Positions 43,849 to 51,428 of a stretch of 64,000 nucleotides of DNA are shown piece after piece (positions within the stretch are counted from its first letter, which is position 1; every line of letters begins with the position of its first letter). A program made the position numbers and the translations under genes. The notes beneath the pieces are model-generated. The model saw only the letters and a program-made list of their open reading frames with translations. It searched no databases and was not told where the DNA came from. The DNA lies in contig NZ_FPBM01000006.1 of NCBI RefSeq assembly GCF_900116715.1, positions 1 to 64,000 on the forward strand, given 5' to 3'. This DNA is from Polaromonas sp. YR568 (GTDB lineage: Bacteria; Pseudomonadota; Gammaproteobacteria; Burkholderiales; Burkholderiaceae_C).

Positions 43849-43896
43849 TCCGCGCCGGTGGCGTTAGAGTATGGGTTGGTCGTACGAGGAACCTGC

Positions 43897-44865
43897 ATGT
43901 CCAACACAAAAAATACACTTGACCCCCGCGAAAAAGCCCTGATCGAGGGGGCGATTGAAAAGGTCAACCGGCAGCTCAAGATACTGCGGGCCTTCAAGAT
44001 ATCCGTGACGCAGACCGGTTGGGACTCGAGCGTGGAGTCCCTGCAAAAGAAAATCAATACCACCCTGGCCGACAGTTTCGGCACCGGCACACCCGACTAC
44101 CGGCAATTCGCCGTCGCCCTGCAGGATTTCATGCTGGACAAAACCTTCGGCGACCGCTTCACGGACGACGAACGCCAGCAAAAAGTCAAACAAGGCATCG
44201 ATCTGGCCACCATGCGCATGAATGCGGCAAAAAAGCTGCTGTCCGATCGCCTCGATGGCACAGCTCCCGTTGCACCCGTGGAAGCGCCGGTTGTGGAAGC
44301 GAAGCCTGCGTCACCGCCCCCACCACCACCACCACCTCCTCCTCCACCACCACCACCACCTCCGCCGCCTCCTCCTCCTCCTCCTCCAGCGGCACCGGCG
44401 CCGGCCTCTGCCCCCACGCCTTCACCTTCCACCACAAAGAGGACCCCCATGGCCAATACCGATCTCCCTTCTTCCTCTTCCGGCACTGGGCCGGTCGCCA
44501 TTCTGGGCCTGGGCGGCGATGCCGTGGGCGATGCGTGTGAGTTTGTCGAGCAGCTCGGCCTGGAGGCCGCAATACTCGACACCGTGTCCATCGATCAGCT
44601 CGAAGGGCTGCGCAATGTGGGGTTTTTGCTGCTCTTGCCGGGCGACAAATCCGATGGACCTGCGGCCATGCTGGCCATCGGGTTCATGCTGGCAGCGCTC
44701 GGCCGCGGCCGCATCGCCTGCCTGATGTCCGAAGACGACGCGCTGCCGGAAGTCCTGAAGGGCGCCACGGCCATTACGATCGACGAGACGGGCCTGTGGC
44801 GCTTGCTGCTGGCGCGCGAGATGAAGCGGGCGGGCCTGGATGTCGATTTGAATCGTGCCGTGTGA
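43897..44865 (+). CDS. Protein with polyproline linker and C-terminal TIR-like nucleotide-binding domain
   Basis: About 322 residues from MSNTKNTLDPREKAL (GAGGAA site ahead of the ATG at 43897). Residues 1-125 form a helical, charged domain that I do not recognise. Residues ~140-164 are 25 consecutive prolines. From ~190 on it resembles the TIR-like domain found in CBASS/Pycsar effectors (PF10137 type): VAILGLGGDAVGDACEFVEQLG, then FMLAALGRGRIACLMSEDD, and the strongly diagnostic LWRLLLAREMKRAGLDVDLNRAV at the end. The family's catalytic FELG is LAIG here, so NAD cleavage is doubtful. Convergent with rtcR, 94 bp apart. Could be a sensor, decoy or scaffold in an RNA-damage or defence response. 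Confidence 0.72.
   Translation: MSNTKNTLDPREKALIEGAIEKVNRQLKILRAFKISVTQTGWDSSVESLQKKINTTLADSFGTGTPDYRQFAVALQDFMLDKTFGDRFTDDERQQKVKQGIDLATMRMNAAKKLLSDRLDGTAPVAPVEAPVVEAKPASPPPPPPPPPPPPPPPPPPPPPPPPPAAPAPASAPTPSPSTTKRTPMANTDLPSSSSGTGPVAILGLGGDAVGDACEFVEQLGLEAAILDTVSIDQLEGLRNVGFLLLLPGDKSDGPAAMLAIGFMLAALGRGRIACLMSEDDALPEVLKGATAITIDETGLWRLLLAREMKRAGLDVDLNRAV
44314..44388 (+). repeat. Trinucleotide tract coding for 25 prolines
   Basis: Runs of CCA and CCT codons (with a few CCG/CCC). Such tracts vary in length by slipped-strand copying in steps of three bases, and their translation needs elongation factor P. Confidence 0.9.
44449..44451 (+). promoter_or_regulatory. Possible internal start codon for the TIR-like domain alone
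   Basis: AAAGAGGA lies 6 bases before an in-frame ATG (MANTDLPSSSS). Use of this start would give a ~139-residue TIR-like domain without the helical domain or proline tract. Confidence 0.35.
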
Positions 44866-44958: not shown

Positions 44959-46563
44959 TCAGCTCGTCAGCTTTTCCCAGCTCAAGTCAAACTTCAGCAA
45001 ATACTTGCGCAACCTGTCCGCATCGTTCACTACGCTGCGCTGGGTGCGCGATACGTTGAACAGTTCGCGTCCGGCATCGCTCAGGGAATTGTGTTTGCGG
45101 CACACCGCCATGACGGCCAGCAATTGCAGGCGGTCGAAGCAGTCGAGCGTGGCTGCCGCCTCGCCCAGTAGTTCATCAAGCTGGGCTGCGGTGTCCCCGG
45201 TATCCCCTGTGCCTTCGGGTGTGGCTTGCCATTGCCAGCGCAGCCGCGCGATTTCGGCATCCACGAGGCCGGCGCCGATACGTCCGTTATCGGCAAGCGT
45301 GGCCAGCCGCGTCATCGACGCACTAAGGTCGCGGAAATTGCCGGCCCAGATAGCCTCGCCTGACTGTGCAAAACGCAAGTAAGCCGCCCTGGCTTCGGTG
45401 GTCATGCGGATCTTGCGGCCCAGGTCTTCCGACGCAAGCCCGAGCTGGTGCTCAATGTTCGGCTCGATGTCTTCACGCCTCTGGGCAAGCCCGGGCAGGG
45501 TGTAAGTCCACAGGTTGATACGCGCAAACAGATCTTCGCGAAAGCGCCCGCGCGCGACCTCCGAACGCAAGTCCTTGTTGGTGCCCGCAATCAGCTGGAA
45601 ACTGCTGTCGACCTCTTTGTCGGCGCCTACGGGCAGGAAGCGCTTTTCTTCGACGGCCTTGAGCAGCATGGCCTGTTCGTCCAGGCCCAGCTCGCCGATC
45701 TCATCAAGAAACAGCACGCCCTTGTCGGCGGTGCGCAGCAAGCCGGGGCGGTCACTGGCTGCACCGGTGAATGAACCCTTCTTGTGGCCGAACAATGTGG
45801 AGCCCGCGCCATCGCCGTGCAGGGTTGCGCAGTTCACATCCACAAAGTTGCCGCTGACCTGGTGGCGCGATTTTTTGAGCTCGTAGATGCGCCGCGCCAG
45901 CATCGACTTGCCCGCGCCGGTCGGCCCGGTCAGCAGGATAGGTGCCTTGCTTTGCACTGCAATGCGCTCAATCTCCTCGATCAGCGTGTTGAAGCGCGGG
46001 TTGCGTGTGGCGATGCCACTTTTGAGGAAGGACACGGCATCTTGATGCGCCACTGTCAGCCGGGCATTGATGGCGTCGTAGCGCGAGAGGTCGAGGTCGA
46101 TCAGCTCATAGCTGCCGGTCCCCTGGCCCTGCCGTCCTCTGGGCGGCGCCGTCTGCAGCAGCACGCCTGGAATAAAGCGTGCCTCAACCAGCAGGAAGAG
46201 GCAGATTTGCGCCACATGGGTGCCGGTGGTGATGTGGGCCCAGTATTCTTCGCGCTCGGTGTCGAAGGCATAGGCGCGCATCCAGTCATACAGTGCGCCA
46301 TAGACCTCGCCGAAATCCCAGGGGTTGGCCAGGTTCATCTCGACCAGCCGGACCTCGGTGCCAGGCGAGAGCTGAATCACGTCGCCCCGCACCCGTTCGG
46401 CCAACGCCTTGTTGCGCACGTCATGCATCAGCTCCAGCCGGTCGACGACCAGGTCTTCATGCTGCGCGATCGACACCGTCGGCCGCCACTTCTCCCAACG
46501 CGAAGCATTCAGGCCTGAATCCAACTGGGTGCCCAGGAAACCCATCACTACTTTCTTCTTCAT
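44959..46563 (-). CDS. rtcR: RtcR, sigma54-dependent activator of the RNA-repair operon
   Basis: 534 residues. The N-terminal ~180 residues are the RtcR CARF-like sensor (VVMGFLGTQLDSGLNASRWEKWRPTVSI), thought to bind RNA fragments with special ends. The AAA+ domain has Walker A TGPTGAGKS near residue 215, the sigma54 contact loop GSFTGA (canonical GAFTGA with one change), and Walker B VLFLDEIGEL. The C-terminal domain has a helix-turn-helix-like end (LSDAGRELFNVSRTQRSVVNDADRL). Divergent from the rtc operon, with a 374 bp spacer containing a sigma54 promoter. Confidence 0.95.
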   Translation of the reverse strand: MKKKVVMGFLGTQLDSGLNASRWEKWRPTVSIAQHEDLVVDRLELMHDVRNKALAERVRGDVIQLSPGTEVRLVEMNLANPWDFGEVYGALYDWMRAYAFDTEREEYWAHITTGTHVAQICLFLLVEARFIPGVLLQTAPPRGRQGQGTGSYELIDLDLSRYDAINARLTVAHQDAVSFLKSGIATRNPRFNTLIEEIERIAVQSKAPILLTGPTGAGKSMLARRIYELKKSRHQVSGNFVDVNCATLHGDGAGSTLFGHKKGSFTGAASDRPGLLRTADKGVLFLDEIGELGLDEQAMLLKAVEEKRFLPVGADKEVDSSFQLIAGTNKDLRSEVARGRFREDLFARINLWTYTLPGLAQRREDIEPNIEHQLGLASEDLGRKIRMTTEARAAYLRFAQSGEAIWAGNFRDLSASMTRLATLADNGRIGAGLVDAEIARLRWQWQATPEGTGDTGDTAAQLDELLGEAAATLDCFDRLQLLAVMAVCRKHNSLSDAGRELFNVSRTQRSVVNDADRLRKYLLKFDLSWEKLTS

Positions 46564-46576
46564 ATTTCTAATGTAC

Positions 46577-46590
46577 TAGCTTTAAAGCTA
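46577..46590. promoter_or_regulatory. 14 bp palindrome, candidate RtcR upstream activating site
   Basis: TAGCTTTAAAGCTA, perfect palindrome about 110 bp upstream of the sigma54 promoter, a usual enhancer distance, and just ahead of the rtcR start. Confidence 0.45.
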
Positions 46591-46687
46591 AATATCGAGA
46601 GATGTAAGAGTCATCAGTCGCGTGATTAGTTGGGTCCAATGAAGGAAATAATCAATGAAATCAAAGATCTTCAAAGATTTCCGAGTG

Positions 46688-46699
46688 AGTCACGTGACT
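46688..46699. promoter_or_regulatory. 12 bp palindrome abutting the -24 element
   Basis: AGTCACGTGACT, perfect palindrome directly next to the sigma54 -24 box. Could be a site for a repressor or a second RtcR site; no known consensus is matched with certainty. Confidence 0.35.
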
Positions 46700-46716
46700 T
46701 TGGCACGTTGCCTGCA
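46700..46716 (+). promoter_or_regulatory. Sigma54 promoter of the rtc operon
   Basis: TTGGCACGTTGCCTGCA fits the -24/-12 pattern TTGGCACG-N4-TTGCA with GG and GC spaced correctly and one change (CTGCA) in the -12 box. Placed between rtcR and the operon; transcription would start near 46727, just before the structured leader. Confidence 0.8.
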
Positions 46717-46726
46717 ATAAAGAAGG

Positions 46727-46920
46727 TGCCGGACGAGAAAGTTGTTCGCTCACAAGCAGGGATTTCCGGGAAACCGGGTCCCGCTGGTCAGGAAGCCCGG
46801 GGTTGTGTTGGGTCTCTTGTGTGCTGCGGCAATGGATGCGCTGGCGCCAAGGCATGTGGTCAAGGGGCGGCTCAGGTAGAGGAGCCGCCCCGTCAGGTTC
46901 GACTCCCGCCGCGTCCGTCA
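46727..46920 (+). ncRNA. tRNA-mimic structured RNA, Y-RNA (YrlA)-like
   Basis: About 190 nt starting at the predicted sigma54 start point. Ends pair as CGGACG (46730-46735) with CGTCCG (46912-46917), like an acceptor stem. A 10 bp hairpin GGGGCGGCTC/GAGCCGCCCC (46864-46873, 46882-46891) has loop AGGTAGAG, recalling a tRNA D-arm. GGTTCGACTCC (46896-46906) is a T-loop signature on an imperfect stem. No anticodon arm lies between them, so it is not a working tRNA. A large insert (46736-46863) holds a GAAA-tetraloop stem (CCGG pairs, 46766-46777). Salmonella rtc operons encode tRNA-mimicking Y RNAs; the partner Ro60/Rsr gene is absent here. Confidence 0.6.
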
Positions 46921-46937
46921 AATTCAAAGAATAAAAA

Positions 46938-47747
46938 ATGAAAAACACGTTGAAACGAGAGTTGCCGCCCGCATTAAAGCGTGCAGTCGATCGCCTCTAT
47001 GCCGTCTTCAGCAACTACCGGGCTCCGTCGCATTGTCTGAATGTGTGCTTGATGTGCTGCATGGACGAGGCCTTGGAAAAGGAAATGAGACAGTTGCCTT
47101 TGCGCCAGATCACTGCCAGACACTTTTATGAGTACAACTGCTCCGCAAAAGATGTCCCGCAGCCTCCCCGCGAAATCAAGTACCTGCTGCCGCGCATGCT
47201 GGAGCTCCTGGCCTTTGGCGCCGAGCTGCATCACTCCAGGGCAATCTATTTGAGCCGATTGGGGAACTGCGAAACCGGTGCGTTTTCATCGGAGGAACAC
47301 GAGGCAATTGCGGCTTTCGCACTAGCCTATTTCTCCGATCGTTTGGGTCAGCACCCGTGGCAGTCAGGGGAGGCAGAGGGCTATGGCAGTGACGAAATCT
47401 TCGAATGCCTCCTGATGCTCGAGATCGGTGGCGTCGATTTGCAGCCTTTGCTGGACTATTGGTTGAAAGACGAATCGACGGCCGCGACTTTGCACTATGT
47501 GAGCGCCGGGTTCTACGATTTCTGGCAGCAAGAACAGCGTATCGACAATGCATTCGGCAAAGATCGCCTCCAGTTTCAGGAACTGATGAAAACCTGGCTG
47601 ACCGACGATGGCCATCGCCGTACGTTCGCGCAAAGGATTCTGGACCTGGAGATGAATAACTTCGACCAGACGCCGACCTGCTACTACGGCAACCAGATCA
47701 CCCCGCAATATATGGCGGAAACCGTATTTGATTTGATAACTTATTAG
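46938..47747 (+). CDS. Unknown protein 1 of the rtc operon
   Basis: 269 residues, starting MKNTLKRELPPALKRAVDRLYAVF, 17 bp after the tRNA-mimic RNA. Soluble and mainly helical, with a Cys cluster near the N-terminus (CLNVCLMCCMD, about residues 34-44) and many Trp/Tyr/Glu residues afterwards. It has no signal peptide or membrane helix. I recognise no family. The start has no good Shine-Dalgarno sequence; only an A-rich leader precedes it. Position first in an RtcR-controlled operon suggests a part in RNA damage sensing or repair, or in handling the structured RNA. Confidence 0.75.
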   Translation: MKNTLKRELPPALKRAVDRLYAVFSNYRAPSHCLNVCLMCCMDEALEKEMRQLPLRQITARHFYEYNCSAKDVPQPPREIKYLLPRMLELLAFGAELHHSRAIYLSRLGNCETGAFSSEEHEAIAAFALAYFSDRLGQHPWQSGEAEGYGSDEIFECLLMLEIGGVDLQPLLDYWLKDESTAATLHYVSAGFYDFWQQEQRIDNAFGKDRLQFQELMKTWLTDDGHRRTFAQRILDLEMNNFDQTPTCYYGNQITPQYMAETVFDLITY

Positions 47748-47806
47748 GGAGAGCTGCAGCAGTGTCAGCATGATGCCGTTGCACCCATCCATTAAAACCA
47801 GAGATC

Positions 47807-48550
47807 ATGAAGAATCGAAAGTTGACTCCCAAAGAAAAGCGGCAGGCAAAGGAGCCTGCGATGCTGACCGCCCAGGCCATTGGCCTGGACCCCGCGCTGT
47901 ACGCAGCGGCTTTGCGCTATCTTTTTGACCGCCCCGTGCCTTTAAAAGACGGGCAGGAGTGGTACTGGGATATCGATGAACCGGAGTTTGTAGCCACGCC
48001 ACTGGAATGGACACGTATCCAGACTGTGCTGTTCGCCAATGCGGGAGCCGATCTGGCTCCGTATGACAACCAGCAGGTGGGTATGGGCCTCAACCACGTC
48101 ATGAGCAATAACGCAGGCAACATTCCACACATGGCCGTTGACGCTTCGGTGCCGCTGGCTGATGCGATGCAGATGATGCAGGCATTTCCTTCCTTGTGGC
48201 GCGACTGCATAGGGCCGCGGCTTGACCAGGCCGGGGCAGCGGGAGATGCCAGCAGCGTTACCCGCCTGGACTTTGTGTGCCATATGTGGTTTGACGTGTG
48301 GCCTACTTTCTGGAACGCGCGGCATATTTCCGAGTGGCGTGATGCGCAATGGCTGGTGTTGTCTGAAATGCTGGACATGCCTTGTCGTGAAGTGCAGAGG
48401 TCTGCGTTGCACGGCATTGGCCATTCGGTGCGTTACCTGCAGCGCGACGAAGTGGTCAGGCAACGTATCGCGCGCTTTGTCGATACGGTGAAAGGTGATA
48501 TCGAGCTGGTGAACTATGCCCTGGCCGCCGCGGACGGCATGGTGCAATAA
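47807..48550 (+). CDS. Unknown protein 2 of the rtc operon
   Basis: 247 residues. Basic N-terminus (MKNRKLTPKEKRQAKEPAMLTAQAIG) followed by a helical body rich in Trp (EWYWDIDEPEF, MWFDVWPTFWNARHISEWRDAQWL). The C-terminal part reads like helical repeats of the HEAT type (VQRSALHGIGHSVRYLQRDEVVRQRIARFV). No catalytic motif is recognised. Lies 60 bp after unknown protein 1 and 68 bp before rtcB, same strand, presumably one transcript. An RNA- or protein-binding scaffold is possible, which is a guess. Confidence 0.75.
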   Translation: MKNRKLTPKEKRQAKEPAMLTAQAIGLDPALYAAALRYLFDRPVPLKDGQEWYWDIDEPEFVATPLEWTRIQTVLFANAGADLAPYDNQQVGMGLNHVMSNNAGNIPHMAVDASVPLADAMQMMQAFPSLWRDCIGPRLDQAGAAGDASSVTRLDFVCHMWFDVWPTFWNARHISEWRDAQWLVLSEMLDMPCREVQRSALHGIGHSVRYLQRDEVVRQRIARFVDTVKGDIELVNYALAAADGMVQ

Positions 48551-48618
48551 ATTCAAAGAACAAACAACAAGCCGGCGACGAGCCGGTAACAAACGAAGAA
48601 ACAAGAAAGAAGAAAAAA
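48549..48618 (+). promoter_or_regulatory. A-rich leader of rtcB with small hairpin
   Basis: Begins with AAATTCAAAGAA, the same 12-mer found at 46920 after the tRNA-mimic RNA. A CCGGC/GCCGG hairpin with loop GACGA follows at 48572-48586, then a purine-rich run up to the rtcB ATG. Possibly a processing or translation-control element. Confidence 0.4.
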
Positions 48619-49851
48619 ATGAACTACCAACAACACGAAGTCACCGGCGGTGTACCGGTGAAGATGTGGACCAACGGCGTGCCGGTGGAGGCCCAGGCCC
48701 TGAAGCAGCTGGAAAACTCCGCACGCCTGCCCATCGTGTTCAAGCACGTAGCCGTGATGCCTGACGTGCACTACGGCCTGGGCGCGACCATCGGCAGCGT
48801 GATCCCGACCTTCAAGGCGATTATTCCGGCCGCCGTCGGTGTGGACATCGGCTGCGGCATGATGGCCTGCAAGACCACGCTATGCGCCGAAGACCTGCCC
48901 GACAACCTGGGCCCGCTACGCTCGGAAATCGAAAAGGCCGTGCCGTATGGCTCCGCACCCAAGACCTACCGCAGAAACGGCTCGGTACGCGAGGTGGGCG
49001 CCTGGACGAACCCGCCCAGTGCGGCTGATGCGGCCTGGGGGCAGCTTGTGGATGAATTCGAGGCAATCTGCCTGGACTATCCGCGCCTGAAGAACACCAA
49101 CAACCACCGCCACATGGGAACCCTGGGCGGCGGTAACCACTTTGTCGAGGTGTGCCTCGACGAAAGTGGTGGGGTGTGGATCATGCTGCACAGCGGTTCG
49201 CGCGGGGTGGGTAACGCCATCGGTACGCACTTCATTGAACTCGCGAAGAAGGATGCCGAGCTGCACCAGCGCAACCTGCCGGACAAGGACCTGGCCTACC
49301 TTGAAGAAGGTTCGCAGTACTTTGGCGACTACGTGCGTGGCGTGGGCTGGGCGCAAAAGTTCGCTCGCCTGAACCGCGAAGTGATGATGCAGGCTGCCAT
49401 CGGTGCGCTGCGCAAGGTGATCAGCAAGCCCTTCGAGACGCACCTGGAAGCGGTGAATTGCCACCACAACTATGTGCAGAAGGAAACGCACTTTGGGCAA
49501 GAAGTGTTTGTGACCCGCAAGGGCGCCGTGAGCGCCAAGGCGGGAGAGCTTGGGATCATTCCCGGCAGCATGGGCGCCAAGAGTTTCATCGTGCGCGGCA
49601 AGGGCAATCCTGACAGCTTTATGAGCTGCAGCCACGGTGCCGGCCGCACCATGAGCCGTACGCAGGCCAAGAAGCTGTTCACGGTGGACGACCAGATCAA
49701 GGCGACCGAAGGCGTGGAATGCCGCAAAGACGCCGAGGTGATCGACGAGATTCCGATGGCCTACAAGGACATCGATGCCGTGATGCTGGCGCAGAGCGAC
49801 CTGGTGGAGGTGGTTTACACGCTCAAGCAGGTGGTATGTGTCAAAGGATGA
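48619..49851 (+). CDS. rtcB: RNA-splicing ligase RtcB
   Basis: GTP- and Mn-dependent ligase that joins 2',3'-cyclic phosphate (or 3'-phosphate) and 5'-OH RNA ends. 410 residues, close to the E. coli enzyme in length. Metal site VGVDIGCGMMACKTTL near residue 75, HMGTLGGGNHFVEV near 165, HSGSRGVGNAIG, and the guanylated His in SCSHGAGRTMSR near residue 335. The C-terminus CVKG is conserved. Its stop overlaps the next gene by ATGA. Confidence 0.97.
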   Translation: MNYQQHEVTGGVPVKMWTNGVPVEAQALKQLENSARLPIVFKHVAVMPDVHYGLGATIGSVIPTFKAIIPAAVGVDIGCGMMACKTTLCAEDLPDNLGPLRSEIEKAVPYGSAPKTYRRNGSVREVGAWTNPPSAADAAWGQLVDEFEAICLDYPRLKNTNNHRHMGTLGGGNHFVEVCLDESGGVWIMLHSGSRGVGNAIGTHFIELAKKDAELHQRNLPDKDLAYLEEGSQYFGDYVRGVGWAQKFARLNREVMMQAAIGALRKVISKPFETHLEAVNCHHNYVQKETHFGQEVFVTRKGAVSAKAGELGIIPGSMGAKSFIVRGKGNPDSFMSCSHGAGRTMSRTQAKKLFTVDDQIKATEGVECRKDAEVIDEIPMAYKDIDAVMLAQSDLVEVVYTLKQVVCVKG

Positions 49852-50345
49852 AGATGAACCTTAAAGCCATTGAGTTGAATGGATATCTCAAGGGGTGGGC
49901 TGATGTGAACGAGAAGCCCGCGGACACGTCGTGCTTCTTCGAACTCATACCGCTGCCTGAATCGGATTTTCCGTGGCTGCATCATTGCGTGACCGGTCAG
50001 TTGGAGATTCCTAAAGGAATTTCACTCAAGGAGTCCGCTGAGCCAGAGCAATTGCTCGCTTCAGTGCTGGCGAAGTGGTGTTTCTTCGAAATACCTTTGG
50101 TGGAGCGCGACAAAGCAATGCTGCTGGTGCAGGAAGCGCAAGGGCGTGATTGGCGCGTCAAAAAAATAGTCGATGACTTTCGCCAGGCGTTTGGCTGGTT
50201 CCGTTTCATCGAGATCGAACAGACTGAATTTCCTCCGGATATCAAGACCGGACGCGCTCCTTTTGTAGCCCTTCACTGGCAGGAGTATGTGCTTGTGGCC
50301 GAAGATTTGACTCAGTGGTTTCTGCATTTCAGCGTGACAGATTGA
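49848..50345 (+). CDS. Unknown protein 3 of the rtc operon
   Basis: 165 residues from the ATG overlapping the rtcB stop (a second ATG is at 49854). Soluble, mixed alpha/beta, with no signal peptide (AIELNGYLKGWADVNEKPADTSCFFELIPLPESDFPWLHHCV). I recognise no family. Wedged between rtcB and rtcA with translational coupling, so it likely works with the ligase or cyclase, or is a local immunity-like or regulatory factor. Usual rtcBA operons have no gene at this point. Confidence 0.75.
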   Translation: MKMNLKAIELNGYLKGWADVNEKPADTSCFFELIPLPESDFPWLHHCVTGQLEIPKGISLKESAEPEQLLASVLAKWCFFEIPLVERDKAMLLVQEAQGRDWRVKKIVDDFRQAFGWFRFIEIEQTEFPPDIKTGRAPFVALHWQEYVLVAEDLTQWFLHFSVTD

Positions 50346-50369
50346 TAACTAAAAGAACAGAAGAACAAA

Positions 50370-51428
50370 ATGATTGAACTCGATGGCTCGCAAGGCGAAG
50401 GTGGCGGGCAGATTCTGCGTACGGCACTGGCGCTCAGCCTGGTGACGGGCAAGCCGTTTCGCATGGACAACATCCGCGCCAAGCGGCCCAAGCCCGGCCT
50501 GATGCGCCAGCACCTGGCCTGCGTAAACGCGGCTGTGGCTGTGGGCGGTGGTGTGGCGCATACGTCCGCCGTCAATGCGGCCGGCCAGGCTGTGCAGATT
50601 GGCGAAACCACGCTGCTGTTTACGCCCGGCGAAGTGCGCTCGGGCGACTACGAATTTGCGGTCGGCTCGGCGGGCAGCTGCATGCTGGTGCTGCAAACCG
50701 TGCTGTGGCCGCTGCTGCAGGCCAAGGCCGCGTCCACACTGCTGCTCAGCGGCGGGACGCACAACCCTATGGCGCCTTCCATTTCCTTCCTGACGTTGCT
50801 GGCGCCGTATTTTTCCGGCAACGGTGAGTCGCTGTTTGACATTGAGCTTCGCCGTCACGGTTTCTACCCGGCGGGTGGCGGAGAGGCGCGTGTGCGCCTG
50901 CATCCGCCTGCACAGGGGCTCTCAGCCATCCACCTGATGGAGCGCGGTGCGCTGCTCGAAGCGTATGCCGAGTGCCTGCACGCCGGCCTGCCCAAAGGCG
51001 TGGCTGAGCGTGAACTCGCTGTTTTGGGCAAGGGGCTGGGCTGGCAGGACGACTGCCTGCGCAACCGCGGGCTGCGCAGCAATGAAGGCCCGGGCAATGC
51101 GCTGCTGGCCGTGCTGCGCTATGAACACATCACCGAGGTGTTTGCCGCCTATGGTGAAAAGAGCGTGAGCGCCGAGCAGGTGGCGCGCCGCGTGCTGCAG
51201 GAGGTGAAGGACTACCAGGCCCACCGGGCGCCGGTAGGCCCACACCTGGCGGACCAGCTGATGATCCCCATGGCCCTGGCTGGCTTGAAGGGAAGAGTGG
51301 GGCGTTACTGGGCGACGGAGCTCACCGAGCACACCCGCACAAACGCCCGGACGATTGAGGCTTTTCTGCCGGTGAAGTTTTCACTCGAGCCGCTCGAGGG
51401 TGGCGTTGTGGTTTCGCTGCAGGCCTGA
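50370..51428 (+). CDS. rtcA: RNA 3'-terminal phosphate cyclase RtcA
   Basis: ATP-dependent conversion of RNA 3'-phosphate to 2',3'-cyclic phosphate via an RNA-adenylate; it also adenylates 5' ends. 352 residues. N-terminal MIELDGSQGEGGGQILRTALALS, insert domain in the middle, and the active-site His in the C-terminal GPHLADQLMIPMALAG. Last gene of the rtc operon; its 24 bp leader is purine-rich, like that of rtcB. Confidence 0.97.
   Translation: MIELDGSQGEGGGQILRTALALSLVTGKPFRMDNIRAKRPKPGLMRQHLACVNAAVAVGGGVAHTSAVNAAGQAVQIGETTLLFTPGEVRSGDYEFAVGSAGSCMLVLQTVLWPLLQAKAASTLLLSGGTHNPMAPSISFLTLLAPYFSGNGESLFDIELRRHGFYPAGGGEARVRLHPPAQGLSAIHLMERGALLEAYAECLHAGLPKGVAERELAVLGKGLGWQDDCLRNRGLRSNEGPGNALLAVLRYEHITEVFAAYGEKSVSAEQVARRVLQEVKDYQAHRAPVGPHLADQLMIPMALAGLKGRVGRYWATELTEHTRTNARTIEAFLPVKFSLEPLEGGVVVSLQA

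Follow-up and report, generated by a model that had tools for sequence, protein, structure and literature searches.

In the rsr-yrlBA-rtcBA operon of Salmonella, RtcR is activated by damaged tRNA ends (PMC7790460). The window analysed here is a stretch of 64,000 nt from Polaromonas sp. YR568 (NZ_FPBM01000006.1, positions 1 to 64,000; one draft genome, n=1), and its rtc operon resembles that of Salmonella (PMC7790460) in its divergent RtcR, in its sigma54 control, and in combining non-coding RNA genes with both rtcB and rtcA in one operon. It is unlike it in lacking Rsr/Ro60 and a match to YrlA, and in having three further proteins, P1, P2 and P3, and a fused leader of two tRNA-like RNAs. In a second kind of locus, an SPFH gene lies beside RtcR, RtcB and RtcA, as in P. 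aeruginosa PaFlo8 (PMC13086221) and in L047. The operons of the three closest congeners are of this kind, whereas in the window the SPFH gene is gone, as are the larger parts of two RNAs. The window operon is very probably an RtcR/sigma54-type RNA-repair operon whose scaffold was lost by a deletion between T-arms, with P1 and P2 as accessory proteins and P3 as a private one.

The gene order is divergent RtcR, sigma54-type site, leader RNA, P1, P2, RtcB, P3 and RtcA. The rtcR gene (44959..46563, minus strand) encodes a sigma54 activator with an RtcR/CARF sensor domain as well as the AAA+ domain (NF038308, 803 bits against a cut-off of 650; PF06956; Sigma54_activat). On the plus strand, rtcB (48619..49851; PF01139, 427 bits) encodes the RNA ligase and is the only RtcB copy in the genome, and rtcA (50370..51428; PF01137, with NF003246 over its cut-off) encodes the RNA 3'-terminal phosphate cyclase. 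Both are co-directional downstream of the sigma54-type site TGGCACGTTGCCTGCA (46701..46716, plus strand; TGGCAC-N6-TGCA), which has the GG-N10-GC spacing, and this is the layout of an RtcR-controlled rtc operon. The spacing rule for sigma54 sites places the start at about 46727 here. A strict sigma54 pattern is present in 8 of the 17 RtcR-to-first-gene spacers scanned, the window counted, and the other nine have no site of this strict form. The profile matches and the layout bear out the initial annotation on several points: the operon is of the RtcR type for RNA repair and includes a leader RNA as well as genes of unfamiliar kinds, a sigma54-type site lies where the promoter was placed, and the three open reading frames are at the coordinates given. 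By analogy with Salmonella, damaged tRNA ends would activate RtcR, a single transcript would then be made from the sigma54 promoter, and RNA ends would be re-formed and sealed by RtcA and RtcB.

Three congeners (L201, L202 and L209) have orthologous operons in which RtcR is followed by RNA-A, the tRNA-like RNA-B, an SPFH scaffold, RNA-C, RtcB and RtcA. Their synteny with the window reaches 84.6% over 1862 nt on the right flank in L201 and 79% over 1036 nt on the left flank in L209, but two of the three congeners are syntenic at just one of the flanks tested, and G043 at neither of them. SPFH-type rtc loci, as Burroughs and Aravind reportedly noted in 2016, have a cognate tRNA-like RNA. In Burkholderiales, this kind of operon consists of the regulator and, divergent from it, tRNA-like RNAs, a scaffold (SPFH or TROVE), RNA-C, accessory genes, RtcB, in some cases a nucleotidyltransferase, and RtcA.

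The leader RNA of the window joins parts of two of these RNAs. Its 5' part (46725..46895, plus strand) comes from RNA-A, which in the congeners is the first of the RNAs ahead of the SPFH gene; the identity to L201, L202 and L209 is 86-89% across 176-183 nt. The 3' end (46896..46916, plus strand) goes back to RNA-C, where it corresponds to the T-arm and the acceptor strand, and 20 of the 21 nt agree with the end of RNA-C in L063, L201, L202 and L209. The joint lies at the T-arm heptamer GGTTCGA (46896..46902, plus strand), which is common to both partners, though short. The 40 nt upstream of the heptamer have 38, 38 and 39 matches to RNA-A of L209, L201 and L202, respectively, versus 10, 8 and 8 to RNA-C; in the 16 nt downstream the relation is reversed, with 13 matches to each RNA-C and 9, 9 and 8 to RNA-A. 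A putative deletion of about 1.76 kb, running from the T-arm of RNA-A to that of RNA-C, explains both the lost scaffold and a broken T-stem. RNA-B, the SPFH scaffold gene and all of RNA-C but its end would have gone with it, leaving a fused leader RNA that now directly precedes P1. Directly after RNA-C in L202 there is a P1 remnant, in which the start of P1 is joined by the final 53 nt of the gene (83%, E 4e-12), so P1 once stood behind RNA-C in this genus.

Other identities for the leader were considered and set aside. An intact tRNA or YrlA is ruled out by ARAGORN, which finds no tRNA in the window at default settings and three poor candidates under relaxed ones, and by Rfam, which has no match in the window at gathering thresholds and three chance-level matches in the leader (E 2-4); the leader matches neither YrlA (RF02553) nor tmRNA (RF00023). 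A simply shortened RNA-C would account for the matched 3' end, but the congeners show that the remainder is RNA-A. RNA-C is defined by a 7-bp acceptor together with a T-arm, CCA and a long internal domain, and the window, which keeps only its last 21 nt, lacks this full set. The 5' match GGNNGCGCTGGC is weak as proof of descent from RNA-C: the window holds 5 matches where 1.34 would be expected, and 2 of 100 shuffles reach 5. Nor is the 3' motif specific to RNA-C, as it is also present on 31 viral contigs, perhaps in ordinary tRNAs.

The leader had been described as a tRNA mimic in which the RNA is kept. The mimicry is incomplete, and what is kept is a fusion of two RNAs, not an intact one. 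Set against shuffles, the fold of the leader at 46727-46918 has only a modest advantage (z -1.65, equalled by 13 of 200); that of the 3' part (46831-46919) is more clearly ahead (z -2.63, 3/200), and that of the 5' part is no better than theirs (z -0.69, 53/200). A hairpin of 10 bp with an 8-nt loop lies within the RNA-A part (46864..46891, plus strand), and a similar one with base changes is found in the scaffold-less operon L152. The fused leader is probably mainly a relic. It could also be a new working tRNA-like RNA, composed of the RNA-A 5' domain and the RNA-C T-arm and acceptor strand and kept by selection after the deletion, which we consider unlikely. Consistent with such a role, GGATGCG and CGCGTCC are able to form a 7-bp stem, and the window differs from the congeners at two bases there, toward better pairing; a base change in the window strengthens the pairing of the fused 3' end with an upstream strand, so the fused RNA may be more than a relic; the fold of the 3' part, better than in 197 of 200 shuffles, points the same way. 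Against it, the T-stem is paired at 3 of 5 positions and no CCA follows it, the 5' part and the ARAGORN and Rfam searches give the results above, and the joint is present in one genome only.

Ro60 is absent, as the initial annotation claimed: TROVE has no match in the whole genome, and the operon is not of the Ro60/TROVE type. An SPFH gene beside rtcB is also absent, though there is one at the equivalent place in the three congeners. The four Band_7 matches in the genome are all on other contigs, and for the one viewed in context no rtc part was matched. The further proposal, that P1, P2 and P3 take the place of Ro60, is argued against by the joint of an SPFH deletion in the window, by the SPFH scaffold of its closest three congeners, and by the other RtcB loci with P1 or P2 (n=24), where SPFH is present in 18, TROVE in 4 and neither in 2, so that a scaffold is kept in 22 of 24. 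This count leaves out presumed duplicates (L057, L119, L120 and L121, whose contigs are as long as those of L072, L069, L073 and L071, respectively), L058 and L122 (distant P2, no rtc gene seen), the 34 distant loci L075-L108, the 15 class loci L035-L049, and the congener loci L203-L208, L210 and L211. Two RtcB operons with P1 directly behind RtcR (L150 and L152) have no scaffold, and they show that P1 operons can do without one, as would be expected if the three proteins formed a new RNA-damage module that functionally replaces Ro60 or SPFH and works with the leader RNA. However, the L150 leader has no similarity to that of the window (430 of 500 shuffles score as high), and the L152 leader has the hairpin in common (0/500 shuffles) but no T-arm. 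P3 has no relatives where searched. Such a replacement module is quite improbable.

P1 and P2 belong to such operons as accessory members and do not replace the scaffold. P1 (269 aa; 46938..47747, plus strand) is predicted to be all-helical (AlphaFold2 mean pLDDT 84), and its residues C37, C40 and C41 are conserved in the alignment of operon members. P2 (247 aa; 47807..48550, plus strand) is also predicted to be all-helical (AlphaFold2 mean pLDDT 92) and may have a HEAT-like arrangement. No Pfam or NCBIfam model matched P1, P2 or P3 at E<=1, and no PADLOC or PHROG family matched P1 or P2. Both recur with RtcB across genera, which was the check named for the unfamiliar proteins and one that P3, as far as searched, does not pass. 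Their distribution is patchy: P1 is found in 11 of 141 genera and 13 of 299 family genomes, and P2 in 7 and 8, respectively, the window's own genome counted, and a sample of 15 further RtcR loci from the class contains none of the three. P1 relatives also occur on three Deinococcus plasmids, where RtcB is not among the neighbours listed. In 34 of 50 loci, distant relatives of P2 have no rtc genes near them, and a P2 relative at 59% on an Eleftheria plasmid also stands apart, so the repair role is one by association only. P1 and P2 may be helical adaptors that aid RtcB or bind its RNA substrates, possibly tRNA.

P2, and perhaps P1, could also be an immunity or antitoxin-like protein against RNA-cutting toxins, carried as cargo of the repair operon. 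In one case the arrangement is as this would predict: a distant P2 relative (G674, L058) follows directly on an RHS-like fragment, as judged by eye. It appears doubtful, since a crude RHS motif tag is present in 5 of the 19 distant P2 loci viewed (of 34), none of which has a toxin-like gene adjoining P2 by eye, and PADLOC gave no match.

P3 (165 aa; 49848..50345, plus strand) is an orphan gene between rtcB and rtcA that overlaps the rtcB stop. Among 299 family genomes and 21 chosen genomes or records it is present in this genome only, and no relative was found among plasmids. Its proposed place as a recurrent module member thus fails as far as searched, and the gene would be a private one that occupies a variable slot.

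RNA-C of the related operons is a tRNA-like RNA of roughly 233 nt that has its CCA encoded, contains a G3:U70 pair and is supported by covariation. The structure behind the pair counts came from 7 of the 14 sequences, and one of five measures, that of further pair types, is not above shuffles (497/500 reach it). G3:U70 and A73, both of which RNA-C has, are alanine identity elements of tRNA-Ala and tmRNA. The ends of RNA-C score below threshold for tmRNA (RF00023; 14.5 and 24.4 of 47 bits), and a tag-peptide frame was rejected by eye because of substitutions and indels there. The stretch before SPFH in L061 is likewise below threshold for YrlA (RF02553; 38.5 of 69 bits). Tentatively, and at rather low probability, RNA-C may represent a new class of aminoacylatable tRNA-like RNA that forms an RNA-damage ribonucleoprotein with RtcB and P1/P2 in Burkholderiales rtc operons, where T-arm repeats would drive scaffold loss and remodelling, with the window as an example caught in the act. 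Whether a repair operon produces an alanylated tRNA mimic is a question that RNA-C allows to be put clearly to the test, and the conserved, unassigned parts P1, P2 and RNA-C lend themselves to direct assays of binding to RtcB and broken tRNA. The window operon, having lost the scaffold and most of the RNAs, and the congeners that retain them form a matched pair for testing the roles of these parts.

In the TrcR regulon of Anabaena, a tRNA (trn) array, RtcB and a slipin (SPFH) are co-controlled under translational stress (PMC10272220). It differs in having TrcR as a repressor and its genes at separate places, and the window has no tRNA array. The regulon recalls three SPFH-P1/P2-RtcB loci (L065, L144 and L151) in which tRNA arrays occur.

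The divergent rtcR gene of the window (44959-46563, minus strand), the sigma54 activator gene, is followed by a sigma54-type site (46701-46716), a leader RNA, P1 (46938-47747), P2 (47807-48550), rtcB, P3 (49848-50345) and rtcA, and all the parts of the RNA-repair operon proposed in the initial annotation (divergent rtcR, sigma54-type site, leader, rtcB and rtcA) are thereby located. For the unfamiliar proteins P1, P2 and P3, searches of Pfam and NCBIfam (E<=1), PADLOC and PHROGs give no match, and all three genes have a lower G+C (0.54, 0.58 and 0.51) than the window (0.63). The genome encodes one RtcB and has no TROVE (Ro60/Rsr) match anywhere. Its four Band_7 (SPFH) matches all lie on contigs other than that of the operon, and the one viewed in context, on contig 12, has no rtc part matched there. 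An ORF at 43858-44865 of the window contains a long proline run (44300-44400).

A search of the genus with the window's RtcB gives a match in 16 of 87 genomes, itself counted, and in G1124, G043 and G1129 the protein is at least 97% identical. The operon order in these three is RtcR, then RNA-A, RNA-B, SPFH, RNA-C, a variable segment, RtcB and RtcA, with the G1129 operon split over two contigs. Aligned over 176-183 nt, the window leader is 86-89% identical to RNA-A of the three congeners; at its 3' end, 20 of the final 21 nt agree with RNA-C. When the sequences are compared jointly around a shared heptamer, GGTTCGA (values for L209, L201 and L202, the loci of G1129, G1124 and G043, in that order), 38, 38 and 39 of the 40 preceding nt agree with RNA-A and 10, 8 and 8 with RNA-C; of the 16 following nt, 13, 13 and 13 agree with RNA-C and 9, 9 and 8 with RNA-A. 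The leader had been taken as a kept RNA; it is instead an RNA-A part joined to an RNA-C end, with a T-stem of 3/5 pairs. In the congeners, 1758 to 1765 nt separate the two T-arms. One deletion between them is the simplest account of the missing scaffold. It would have removed SPFH from the window's operon, and it would also explain why a second RNA is absent and why the T-stem halves fit badly. G043 has a P1 remnant (the start and last 53 nt) between RNA-C and RtcB, and therefore the position of P1 behind RNA-C, which the window shows too, already existed in this genus. The flanking DNA of the window matches on the right side in G1124 and on the left side in G1129; neither tested flank matches in G043.

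Among the other congeners with a match, G024 has RtcR, RtcB and RtcA in direct succession, one contig of G1134 carries RtcR and RtcB and a second one RtcB and RtcA, and RtcR and RtcB are seen in G003. G1137 has RtcB only, G1130 has RtcR only as fragments, and the RtcB of G1123 (61% identity) has no partners seen; the other six RtcB matches, viewed at the match only, are 35-36% identical. The congener locus L205 (8717-9095) has RtcB-RtcA, with RtcR only as fragments. L201 has a 167-aa gene between RNA-C and RtcB, and L073 (12241-13221) has a gene between P1 and RtcB that looks ADP-ribosylglycohydrolase-like by eye. These two genes are mutually unrelated and suggest a variable cargo slot in the operon.

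RtcB occurs together with P1 or P2 in 25 of 36 tabulated rows, the window counted, and with both in 8 of the 25. The scaffold in these rows is SPFH in 18 and TROVE in 4, one of which (L153) has a weak (29%), oppositely directed P1 match; L150, L152 and the window have neither. P1 and P2 thus normally lie beside a scaffold, and they are members of a wider operon type, not scaffold substitutes. The proposal that the new proteins replaced the scaffold beside a kept RNA gives way to the deletion, which explains the operon better. L152 (396-500) is another scaffold-less operon, with RtcR followed by P1-RtcB-RtcA; its short leader retains a hairpin resembling the window's, and no T-arm is seen in it.

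P1 is found by a single-query search in 1 of 101 relatives, the window's own genome, and by an 8-row profile in 13 of 299 family genomes, the window's own counted. RtcB is present in the fetched stretch of 10 of the 12 others, lying at most about 1.3 kb downstream of P1 and co-directional with it in nine, and on the opposite strand in L153. P1 adjoins TROVE in L147, and in L149 it has no known partner in the stretch. For P2 the counts are 3 of 399 genomes of the order and 8 of 299 of the family, the window's own counted in both, and a species-genome scan gives 50 P2 loci, 16 of at least 47% identity (L059-L074) and 34 distant. RtcB is in the stretch of 12 of the 16. The stretches of L067 and L070 stop within about 1.1 kb past P2, L074 has SPFH and no RtcB match, and L071 has neither in its stretch. 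The stretches available for the 34 distant loci contain no listed rtc part, and a plasmid of Eleftheria carries a 59% P2 without RtcB alongside. P1, P2 and P3 are all absent from 15 other RtcR loci of the class. The predicted co-occurrence of three proteins with RtcB holds for P1 and P2, which are recurring families, and fails for P3, for which the window's own genome is the sole match both among 299 family genomes and among 21 chosen genomes or records, and plasmids give none.

The window resembles published RtcR systems in its regulator, promoter type and enzymes, and because these are the same, the same circuit would operate here. RtcR of Salmonella is activated by damaged tRNA ends (PMC7790460). 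In E. coli, according to PMC9650030, the CARF domain of RtcR is bound by RtcA and RtcB, and tmRNA is an RtcB target. P1 and P2 could hypothetically be added to this circuit as helical adaptors, serving either RtcB or its substrates. Scaffold replacement is a less valuable headline than the recurring P1/P2 families, RNA-C and the loci with tRNA arrays.

RNA-B, which like RNA-A precedes SPFH, has an Rfam tRNA match above threshold in L209 (36.6 vs 29 bits). The stretch before SPFH in L061 also scores above the tRNA threshold (35.2 vs 29) and below that for YrlA (38.5 of 69 bits); YrlA exceeds its threshold in TROVE operons (92.3 bits in L039, 74 bits in L059). Three adjoining tRNA calls precede SPFH at L047:8669-8883, their anticodons being AGA, undetermined and AGT. 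A34 is uncommon in bacterial tRNAs of these kinds.

RNA-C, the tRNA-like RNA after SPFH, is about 233 nt long (for example L061:7734-7966) and is followed by P2, P1 or RtcB, and in L201 by a different gene; a plasmid of Eleftheria terrae has RtcB immediately after it. Matches of at least 200 nt occur in 15 of the 36 tabulated rows, all 15 with RtcB, and L143 has a 42-nt remnant. In a 14-sequence alignment 97.3% of cells are paired, and 16 pairs are changed on both sides against a shuffled mean of 9.9 (0 of 500 shuffles reach 16), numbers that are not probabilities since the sequences share ancestry and 7 of the 14 supplied the structure. The structure slid along the alignment gives at most 3 pairs changed on both sides, and the number of further pair types does not exceed that in shuffles. 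The acceptor stem has G3:U70 in 13 of 13 countable rows, and the RNA ends in A73 and an encoded CCA, except that L202 reads CAA and L118 is disrupted at that end. G3:U70 with A73 is the mark of alanine tRNAs and tmRNA. RNA-C has no Rfam match above threshold in sensitive searches (L061, L209) or at gathering (L059, L065, L068). A similar GC-rich insert interrupts RNA-C inside the T-loop in L118 (about 8285) and L060 (about 7880).

ARAGORN calls tRNA arrays in L065 (3175-6317, 20 calls), L144 (4683-6694, 10 calls) and L151 (10789-12891, 7 calls). The arrays precede SPFH, P1 or P2, and RtcB, and RtcR is absent from the stretch. In the Anabaena TrcR regulon (PMC10272220) one repressor controls a tRNA array together with rtcB and a slipin gene, and the three loci resemble it in tRNA array, RtcB and slipin/SPFH. 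They possibly combine tRNA replacement with a repair operon. L148 is left out of the arrays, as the one call placed among 16 in its stretch falls past the operon. Smaller tRNA sets are called in L069, where a call inside the P2 gene is probably false, and in L074.
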